A DNA stretch of 64,000 bases from Natrarchaeobius oligotrophus (GTDB lineage: Archaea; Halobacteriota; Halobacteria; Halobacteriales; Natrialbaceae), in assembly GCF_003841465.1 (NCBI RefSeq), contig NZ_REFZ01000005.1, positions 124,001 to 188,000 on the forward strand, given 5' to 3'. Shown piece by piece: positions 14,645-17,271 of the stretch. Positions within the stretch are counted from its first letter, which is position 1. The number at the start of each line of letters is the position of its first letter. The translations under genes were made by a program, and so were the position numbers. The notes under the pieces were generated by a model that searched no databases, had not been told where the DNA came from, and worked only from the letters and a program-made list of their open reading frames with translations.

Positions 14645-14890
14645 ATGGCACGGGACTCCTGTGACGGCTGCGGTCGGCCGGTGTCGGTCGCCGGCGGCAT
14701 GGAAAACGTCTGGACGTTCGGACAGGACGACGGCAGCGACGGAACCGCGATGACCCTCGAGTTCGAGGACGGAACGTCGCACATGCTGTGTTATCCGTGT
14801 CTCGCCGCGCTGCCCGACGAGCCGACCGACGACGACGTCGAGCGACTCGAGCGGGTCGACGAGGAGACCTCGACGCTCGGCGCGCGCTGA
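14645..14890 (+). CDS. small zinc-ribbon protein (DUF7561-like)
   Basis: 81 residues with two Cys pairs, CDGC at about residues 6-9 and CYPC at 49-52, separated by a beta-type core WTFGQDDGSDG and LEFEDGTSHML. This is a recognisable small haloarchaeal zinc-binding family (DUF7561 from memory). The tail is acidic and variable. It starts 154 bp upstream-divergent from the Cys-cluster gene. Probably a cytoplasmic accessory protein; function unknown. Confidence 0.82.
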   Translation: MARDSCDGCGRPVSVAGGMENVWTFGQDDGSDGTAMTLEFEDGTSHMLCYPCLAALPDEPTDDDVERLERVDEETSTLGAR

Positions 14891-15118: not shown

Positions 15119-15206
15119 CGGAAGGGGTGGGATTTGAACGCCACGAGGCTGAACGCCGCCGCGGGCCTGACGGCACCGCGGTGCTCTACCGCTGAGCGAC
15201 CCTTCC
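15119..15206 (-). tRNA. tRNA-like sequence with aberrant anticodon arm, identity undetermined
   Basis: The minus strand gives a 7-bp acceptor GGAAGGG/CCCTTCC, a D-arm GCTC-AGCGGTA-GAGC and a T-loop TTCAAAT with G discriminator. However, the T-stem carries one extra base (GTGGCG against CCCAC). The anticodon arm is CCGCG/CGCGG around a 13-nt loop that can itself pair GCC/GGC, so no normal 7-nt loop with U33 can be drawn. A short variable hairpin GGC-GTTCA-GCC follows. It is either a degenerate tRNA, a tRNA with an unusual insert, or a non-tRNA structured RNA. I cannot assign an amino acid. Confidence 0.55.
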
Positions 15207-15441
15207 GCACGTCGAGTCGACGGCGGAGTTCGTATTTGTAATCAGTCGATTACCCGCGGGTAGCCGGCACCTATACCCCGACCGTCGTTAGCCCGTTTGC
15301 CGTCCATCGTTCTCGATCGACGACGCGTTGACCCTAGAGCGAACGTCAAAGTCGAGCGACGACGAGCCGGATCGACCGCGGAACCGGCGACGCGTTCACA
15401 GTGCAAGCGACGGTTCGTAGCCTTTAGGACGCGTCCGGTCG

Positions 15442-17271
15442 GTGACTCGAACGGTGAACCCCGAGCGGATCTTCGAGGAGTTTCCCGCGCCGAGCTACCG
15501 CGGGAACCAGGAGCGAGCCCTCCGCGACATTCGAGACGCCTTCGCGGCCGGCAACGACGTCGTGCTCGTGCGCGCGCCGACGGGAAGCGGTAAGTCCCTG
15601 CTGGCTCGAGCCGTCGCAGGCTGTGCGCGCACCGTCGAGGAGGCCGAACCGAGCGAGGCGTCGGGCGCGTACTACACGACGCCGCAGGTGTCGCAACTGG
15701 ACGACGTCGCGACCGACGACCTGCTCTCGGATCTCAACGTCATCCGCGGGAAGTCGAACTACACCTGCATCCTCCCCGACGAGCGAAACACGCCCGTCAA
15801 CCAGGCCCCCTGCGTTCGCGAGCGCGGCTACGACTGCTCCGTCCAGCACCGCTGTCCGTACTTTTCGGACCGCGCGATCGCGTCGAACAGGGAGATCGCC
15901 GCGATGACGCTCGCGTACTTCATGCAGACGGCCGGCAGCGAGGTCTTTCGCAAGCGCGACGTCGTCGTCGTCGACGAGGCCCACGGTCTCGCGGAGTGGG
16001 CCGAGATGTACGCGACGATCCAGCTGGGGCCGCGGACTGTGCCGTTCTGGGACGAGCTTCGCGTCCCCGAGATCGATCGGACCGAGCGGGCCGTTCGGTA
16101 CGCGGAGAACCTCGCCGGGACGTGCAGCCGCCGCAAGGACGAACTGCTCGCACAGGAGTCGCTGACGCCCGGCGAAGTCCGCGAGCGCGACCGGCTCCAG
16201 GAGCTGATCGGCGAACTCGAGTGGTTCGTCTCGGATTACCGCGATCCGGAGAGTCCGACGACGTGGCTGGTCGATCAGTCCGAGCCGTCGAGCGCCCGCG
16301 GCGACGATCGAAGCGACGCGGACGGAGCCGGCGGCCAGGGCGGCCCGTTGACGATCAAGCCGATGAACCCCGAGAAGTACCTCGCACACACCGTCTGGGG
16401 CCGGGGGAACAGGTTCGCGTTACTATCCGCGACCATCCTGAACAAGGAGGCGTTCTGTCGGCAGGTCGGGCTGGAACCCGAAACCGTCGCGCTCGTCGAC
16501 GTCGGCCACACCTTCCCCGTCGAAAACCGGCCGCTGTACGACGTCACGCAGGGGAAGATGACCTACGAGCGCCGCGACGAGACGACGCCGAAGATCGCCC
16601 GCGCGATCGTTCGGATCATGCAACGCCACCCCGACGAGAAGGGGCTCGTCCACGCCCACTCCTACGACATCCAGGAGCGACTGGCGACGCTCCTTCGGGA
16701 TTTCGGCGTCGGCGACCGGATCCGGACCCACGACCGCGACGACCGCGACGCCGACCTCGAGGCCTGGAAGGCGAGCGACGATCCGGACGTCTTCCTCTCG
16801 GTGAAGATGGAAGAAGCGCTCGACCTGAAGGGCGATCTCTGTCGGTTCCAGGTGCTGTGTAAAGCGCCCTTCCTCAACACCGGCGACTCGCGGGTGGCAC
16901 ACCGACTCGAGGAGGGCCAGTGGGCGTGGTACTACCGGTCGGCGCTCCGGACGGTCATCCAGGCCTGCGGACGGGTCGTCCGCGCGCCCGACGACTACGG
17001 CGCGACCTACCTCGCGGACTCGAGCCTGCTCGACCTCTTCGAGCGGGCACGGACGGACATGCCCGACTGGTTCGAAGCCCAGGTCGATCGGACCGGCCGA
17101 CCGGAGCTTCCGGCGTTCGATCCGCAAGCGGCGCTCGACGGGACGTCGACGGACTCAGCGGACGGTTCGACGGCCGGCTCCGGCCAGCGGTCTCGTGGCC
17201 GGAGCCGCGGGCGTTCGAGGCGGTCGTCCCGCTCGAGTCCGCTCGCCGACGTGTGGGAGACGGACGGCTGA
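15442..17271 (+). CDS. XPD/DinG-type ATP-dependent DNA helicase with Fe-S domain
   Basis: 609 residues, superfamily 2 helicase. Walker A APTGSGKS is at residues 45-52 and DEAH at 178-181. Four Cys at 109, 124, 132 and 138 between them match the 4Fe-4S domain of XPD/Rad3 relatives. Motif VI appears as IQACGRVVRAPDDYG near residue 510. Known relatives unwind DNA 5' to 3' in repair. The last ~50 residues are a low-complexity Ser/Arg/Gly tail, unusual for a haloarchaeal protein and possibly nucleic-acid-binding. GTG 15442 or GTG 15454 could be the start; both keep the family N-terminus. Confidence 0.92.
   Translation: MTRTVNPERIFEEFPAPSYRGNQERALRDIRDAFAAGNDVVLVRAPTGSGKSLLARAVAGCARTVEEAEPSEASGAYYTTPQVSQLDDVATDDLLSDLNVIRGKSNYTCILPDERNTPVNQAPCVRERGYDCSVQHRCPYFSDRAIASNREIAAMTLAYFMQTAGSEVFRKRDVVVVDEAHGLAEWAEMYATIQLGPRTVPFWDELRVPEIDRTERAVRYAENLAGTCSRRKDELLAQESLTPGEVRERDRLQELIGELEWFVSDYRDPESPTTWLVDQSEPSSARGDDRSDADGAGGQGGPLTIKPMNPEKYLAHTVWGRGNRFALLSATILNKEAFCRQVGLEPETVALVDVGHTFPVENRPLYDVTQGKMTYERRDETTPKIARAIVRIMQRHPDEKGLVHAHSYDIQERLATLLRDFGVGDRIRTHDRDDRDADLEAWKASDDPDVFLSVKMEEALDLKGDLCRFQVLCKAPFLNTGDSRVAHRLEEGQWAWYYRSALRTVIQACGRVVRAPDDYGATYLADSSLLDLFERARTDMPDWFEAQVDRTGRPELPAFDPQAALDGTSTDSADGSTAGSGQRSRGRSRGRSRRSSRSSPLADVWETDG

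Follow-up and report, generated by a model that had tools for sequence, protein, structure and literature searches.

A 64,000-nucleotide stretch of the Natrarchaeobius oligotrophus genome, referred to here as the window, carries a member of a family of tRNA-like RNAs in which a structural hairpin takes the place of the anticodon arm. The family has invariant and variable parts, a promoter signal upstream, and a clear relation to tRNASer, and one of its subtypes clusters with genes encoding FemX-like transferases. We give even chances to the reading that this RNA is a conserved non-decoding tRNA, probably of the seryl type, from which FemX-like transferases take an amino acid for use on surface glycans. 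The family, its signals, and its clustering are observed, whereas we infer that the RNA is charged, kept out of translation, and used as a donor. No published description of the RNA was found in the literature searched, though Hoelzle et al. (2012), who treat tRNA-like elements in Haloferax volcanii, may list a homolog.

Structure of the RNA

Compared as a short stretch with the Rfam tRNA model RF00005 in Infernal, the RNA scores 34.1 bits, above the gathering score of 29. This bears out the coordinates proposed in the initial annotation, 15119-15206, and places the RNA on the minus strand, read from 15206 down to 15119. It is missed by the filter of a cmscan run on the whole 64-kb window and by ARAGORN, and it receives 104.4 bits from our own covariance model, R1. 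The minimum-energy fold has a free energy of -50.7 kcal/mol (z = -4.3), with none of 200 shuffles folding equally well. It takes a cloverleaf shape in which the anticodon hairpin is lengthened and closed, the variable arm is small, and the T-stem holds an additional C. The elements that the initial annotation had drawn from the letters are all present in this fold, namely the 7-bp acceptor, the D-arm, the TTCAAAT T-loop, an extra T-stem base, an anticodon arm of 5 bp and 13 nt that closes as a hairpin, and an extra small stem ahead of the T-arm, which has 3 bp. The features of the locus, with the evidence for each, are as follows.

15119..15206, minus strand: tRNA-like RNA, 87 nt plus G73, CCA not encoded (Rfam tRNA covariance model, R1, homologs)
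15200..15206, minus strand: 5′ strand of the acceptor, GGAAGGG (invariant; 95 of 95 when the acceptor is left free in the pattern)
15120..15126, minus strand: 3′ strand of the acceptor, CCCTTCC (fold and homolog conservation)
15119..15119, minus strand: discriminator base G73 (G in 117, A in 38, and C in 1 of the family of 156)
15183..15197, minus strand: D-arm GCTC-AGCGGTA-GAGC with G18 and G19 (match to the Rfam tRNA covariance model, conservation)
15159..15181, minus strand: extended hairpin CCGCGG-U-GCC-GUCA-GGC-CCGCGG in place of the anticodon arm (folding, covariation, loop test)
15147..15157, minus strand: long variable arm GGC-GTTCA-GCC, in type and spacing like that of tRNASer(UGA) of the same genome (fold, model comparison)
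15127..15144, minus strand: T-arm GTGG-C-G TTCAAAT CCCAC, the 5′ side of its T-stem holding the extra C (15140) (covariance model, fold)
15232..15243, minus strand: putative TATA-like promoter GATTACAAATAC, ~26-37 nt upstream of the RNA 5′ end (conserved in same-family genomes)
15442..17271, plus strand: XPD/DinG-like helicase gene, divergent from the RNA and a conserved neighbor in Natrialbaceae (synteny)

Short linkers join these parts, with TC between the acceptor and the D-arm, A between the D-arm and the anticodon hairpin, C before the variable arm, and TC before the T-arm. A small DUF7561 protein with CxxC-type motifs is encoded next to the RNA (14645-14890, plus strand), and Rfam matches to radC, sX4, and snoRNA models close by fall below threshold and are taken as chance.

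The window RNA lacks the 7-nt loop, U33, and anticodon of a functional decoding tRNA, and its T-stem carries an additional base. The earlier claim that no standard anticodon can be drawn holds beyond the window, as the loop has 13 nt here and a standard loop is impossible in 148 of the 156 homologs; in the remaining 8, where a 7-nt loop with U33 can be formed, the would-be anticodons differ. The N. oligotrophus genome contains 44 ordinary tRNA genes, two of them with introns (tRNAMet and tRNAGln), which makes the RNA dispensable for reading codons.

Conservation and distribution

Copies at 83-100% identity were detected by BLAST in 29 of the 37 genomes of the window's own family. This puts the window RNA far beyond chance and speaks against a random, non-conserved fragment, a case the initial annotation had allowed for. 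The covariance search in relatives that it had proposed yields homologs throughout the haloarchaeal order. The RNA is found in 114 stretches of named haloarchaea, in genera that include Natrialba, Natrinema, Natronococcus, Haloferax (13 of 15), Haloarcula, Halorussus, Haladaptatus, Halorientalis, Halobellus, and many others. The exact RNA pattern has no match in ~312 genomes of the same phylum outside the order. A viral or plasmid origin was rejected, with no viral contigs, no phage records, and one plasmid among the carriers. Routine annotation is blind to the RNA, which ARAGORN either misses or mislabels. It is missing from many genera, and in one relative a decayed copy (L065, G007:C10:118143-118188) retains the promoter with an acceptor cut to GGAAG/CTTCC; given these losses, the RNA is not essential.

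The family set comprises at least 156 distinct sequences, collected by a pattern that fixes the acceptor and the T-arm. Identity across the set is 100% in the acceptor, 92% in the D-arm, and 84% in the T-arm, compared with 45% in the anticodon region and 28-33% in the flanks (n = 156), the values for the acceptor and T-arm being partly conditioned by the collecting expression. When the acceptor is left free in the pattern, all 95 matches, from 94 of 293 genomes, nevertheless start with GGAAGGG, and a control with the reversed pattern gives no match. Common to all members are the acceptor GGAAGGG/CCCUUCC, the D-arm of a tRNA, the T-loop, and one extra T-stem base. The T-stem is regular in none of the 156 and has one extra base in its 5′ strand in every one of them; the set was chosen by its T-arm pattern, and the copies found by BLAST agree. 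The extra base is placed as GTGG-C-G in the Natrialbaceae type and as GCG-T-GG in the other types.

Between the D-arm and the T-arm lie 29-57 nt of nearly free sequence. Even so, a stem at the anticodon position is retained in 141 of the 156, and five of the six anticodon-arm pairs show two-sided, compensatory changes, a count above that of every one of 500 shuffles. The conservation, the covariation, and the acceptor-free search are at odds with the random change without purifying selection expected of a pseudo-tRNA.

The flanks are not conserved apart from a TATA-like AT peak. Over the 156 upstream regions this peak lies at -35 to -27, the usual position of an archaeal promoter, and the best AT 8-mer falls there in 140 of them. 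The promoter signal strongly suggests that the RNA is transcribed from its own promoter. Downstream, identity over 60 nt is only 0.29 and no conserved RNA follows the family members, and a transcript-processing element of the t-element kind was rejected on this basis.

Several further observations were made at related loci. The initial annotation had reported a copy of the RNA 3′ end immediately after the window RNA, which was found neither nearby in a search allowing three mismatches nor in a repeat search of the window. In two other genomes the RNA's own 3′ end is repeated in tandem behind it, once or twice (L061/L062 in G058 and L064 in G014), as in the traces left by integrases. An unannotated copy of the RNA lies on the 120-kb Halorientalis plasmid pHOS100 (NZ_CP019069.1; L305, 12001-12090), near orc1/cdc6, DUF1616, and FemX-like genes. 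Lastly, a 55-kb contig in one genome carries a second, divergent pair of tRNAPhe(GAA) and tRNATyr(GTA) genes, ~125 bases apart, in addition to the normal genes (L052, L057; G000:C69:41244-41513), which may be borne by a plasmid or another element.

Relation to tRNASer and linkage to FemX-like genes

When R1 is used to rank the 44 tRNA genes of the genome, the four tRNASer genes come out on top (49.4, 44.5, 43.1, and 42.9 bits), with tRNASer(UGA) first. The window RNA resembles tRNASer, and above all tRNASer(UGA) of the same genome, in its variable arm and spacing, G73, G1-C72, G2-C71, and general body; it differs in the absence of an anticodon loop, the extra T-stem base, and another acceptor. 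Serine identity is set by G73 and the variable arm, with no part played by the anticodon (PMC9976931). The long variable arm and G73 are both present in the window RNA, and copies of this type would most likely be charged with serine. The A73 found in 38 of the 156 members does not fit SerRS identity. Given this A73, and the loss of the variable-arm stem in several sdhA-locus groups, with the stem missing in many sdhA-locus members, the charging identity may vary by lineage.

Three types of location are observed. The Natrialbaceae type, to which the window copy belongs, is divergent from the XPD/DinG-like helicase gene. A second type lies directly downstream of sdhA in 46 loci (Haloferax, Haloarcula, Halobellus, and others), and a third lies inside surface-polysaccharide clusters with genes for a glycosyltransferase, a UDP-sugar dehydrogenase, an epimerase, DUF1616, and glmS. 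In this third subtype a PF13480/FemAB-like gene is found within 25 kb of the RNA in 30 of 34 genomes against ~1.2 expected, a figure computed from 2-6 PF13480-type genes per genome, and many or most of the 34 represent one ancestral locus, mostly in one family, such that independent events are few. Of the other four genomes, three have fragmented assemblies and in one the distance is 57 kb. The linkage recurs in f7 (~4-5 kb), on two plasmids (~8-9 kb), in Halomicrococcus (2.4 kb), and at a second copy in a Natrialbaceae genome (G252), giving at least four unrelated settings for the FemX-linked subtype. At the helicase locus of the window and at the sdhA locus, no FemX-like gene is nearby. A trio of side-by-side genes for a DUF1616 protein, a type I phosphodiesterase, and a FemX-like protein also recurs in haloarchaeal glycan clusters (L096, L098, L105, L311, L314).

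On the level of whole genomes, a FemX-like gene is present in 53 of 53 genomes with RNA of the window type or the linked subtype and in 16 of 24 with the sdhA-locus type, as raw genome counts that ignore kinship. A strong PF13480 gene also occurs in 31 of 68 RNA-negative genomes and is missing from 8 RNA-positive ones, again with kinship ignored. Strict co-occurrence with FemX-like protein 2 was ruled out, as families free of the RNA carry the protein. A search beside the FemX genes of RNA-free genomes revealed no hidden divergent RNA, the best model matches being ordinary tRNAs, chiefly tRNASer(UGA).

The partner proteins are homologous to FemX that depends on aminoacyl-tRNA. A profile of 13 FemX-like proteins has credible matches in the PDB only to proteins of the FemX type, with the lipid II:glycine glycyltransferase 6snr at E 6e-5 and Weissella FemX at E 0.003; a PDB search with one single sequence gave no match. 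All 13 contain PF13480, and 10 of the 13 match PF02388 (Pfam FemAB) at E <= 0.01. Bacterial enzymes of the Fem type build the bridges of peptidoglycan. FemX takes its amino acid from aminoacyl-tRNA, and Weissella FemX requires the G2-C71 base pair (PMC4052509), which is invariant in the RNA family. In Staphylococcus, the Fem enzymes are supplied by tRNAGly with weak EF-Tu binding through changes in the T-stem (PMC4052509).

These observations suggest the following path. The RNA would be transcribed from its own promoter and fold into the tRNA L-shape by means of its invariant acceptor, D-arm, T-loop, and G18G19, with the decoding end exchanged for a structural hairpin whose sequence is hardly constrained. 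It would then gain CCA and be aminoacylated, in copies of the window type most likely with serine. The bulged T-stem and the missing anticodon would bar the charged RNA from EF1A and the ribosome, and the FemX-like (PF13480/FemAB) transferases would spend it as a dedicated donor on a surface glycan or glycopeptide. In a narrower version, a dedicated anticodon-free tRNA found throughout the haloarchaea would receive its amino acid, serine in most lineages, solely for the use of FemX-like transferases, which would attach it to surface polysaccharides. This version is held tentatively, at somewhat less than even chances.

Competing explanations and known systems

The RNA may instead be a tRNA mimic, conserved without serving as a donor. 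It could act as an uncharged decoy or regulator, with RNase P, tRNase Z, SerRS, or a modification enzyme as its target, or as a processing element, as the Haloferax t-element does. An invariant body combined with a free anticodon region would suit any tRNA-binding protein, and the occurrence of A73 in some lineages speaks against a single fixed charging identity. However, the family has no conserved RNA downstream, in contrast to the 5S t-element, and a mimic leaves the FemX clustering unexplained, making this explanation unlikely though still one to be reckoned with.

It is less probable again that the RNA is a non-decoding tRNA with its real function elsewhere, whose proximity to FemX-like genes reflects the insertion of islands at tRNA-like genes or a single inherited polysaccharide locus. 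Integrases use tRNA-like genes as attachment sites, and the tandem 3′-end copies beside some homologs resemble integrase scars; most linked genomes also belong to one family, and the other two location types are unlinked. Yet the RNA sits within the glycan clusters and not at their edge, and the linkage appears again on two plasmids and in f7. In G252, only 224 nt separate the end of the second RNA copy from a FemX-like gene whose other neighbors encode a citrate transporter and a transposase. No glycan genes flank it, which counts against a mere polysaccharide-island effect.

The initial annotation had left three options open. Its option of a tRNA-mimic RNA, taken broadly enough to include a non-decoding donor tRNA, is supported by the present results, and the other two are very improbable. 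A decayed tRNA or pseudogene would account for the odd anticodon and T arms and for a tRNA score that is low for a genuine tRNA, and one relative does hold a truly decayed copy, but this explanation is refuted by conservation, as the oddities are maintained order-wide, paired positions change in a compensatory way, and the promoter is conserved too. Anticodon-loop introns are frequent in archaeal tRNAs and two occur in this genome, but a tRNA that becomes canonical once spliced has next to no chance here, given that the 13-nt loop folds as a short hairpin with a 1-nt bulge and no bulge-helix-bulge, that removal of the insert leaves no standard anticodon loop, that ARAGORN reports no intron-containing tRNA, and that a 7-nt loop with U33 is within reach of few homologs, whose would-be anticodons differ.

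If the donor reading is true, it would constitute an aminoacyl-tRNA pathway outside translation that was previously undescribed in archaea and is carried out by a tRNA stripped of its decoding end. Evolution could then remove decoding from a tRNA across an entire order while the parts used by synthetase and transferase stay, and the pathway would point to aminoacylated archaeal surface glycans made by enzymes of the type that forms bacterial peptidoglycan bridges. As the RNA is carried by Haloferax, a laboratory-tractable genus, deletion and a charging assay are feasible.

Among known systems, the t-element upstream of 5S rRNA in Haloferax is likewise a haloarchaeal tRNA-like structure, but it is a processing signal for the downstream RNA, whereas the RNA described here is separate and has its own predicted promoter (PMC4326828). 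The selC* tRNACys and 8/4 tRNASec share one unpaired T-stem base (A51a), yet they decode, while the haloarchaeal RNA has a 7-bp acceptor and no anticodon (PMC7609411). tRNA-Other of Bacillus cereus is also a tRNA-like RNA outside translation, but unlike the haloarchaeal RNA it has a Trp anticodon, is restricted to one species group, and is part of a longer RNA (PMC3399842). The role proposed for the haloarchaeal RNA, that of a tRNA withheld from translation for the use of Fem transferases, is the one held by the non-proteinogenic tRNAGly for FemXAB in Staphylococcus, which likewise has an altered T-stem; the staphylococcal tRNA keeps the anticodon and a regular T-stem and has lost G18G19, whereas the haloarchaeal RNA keeps G18G19, has lost the anticodon, and belongs to an archaeal host (PMC4052509). 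If the donor reading is right, the RNA would work like the non-proteinogenic tRNAs of Staphylococcus, from which the absence of an anticodon and the archaeal setting would set it apart.
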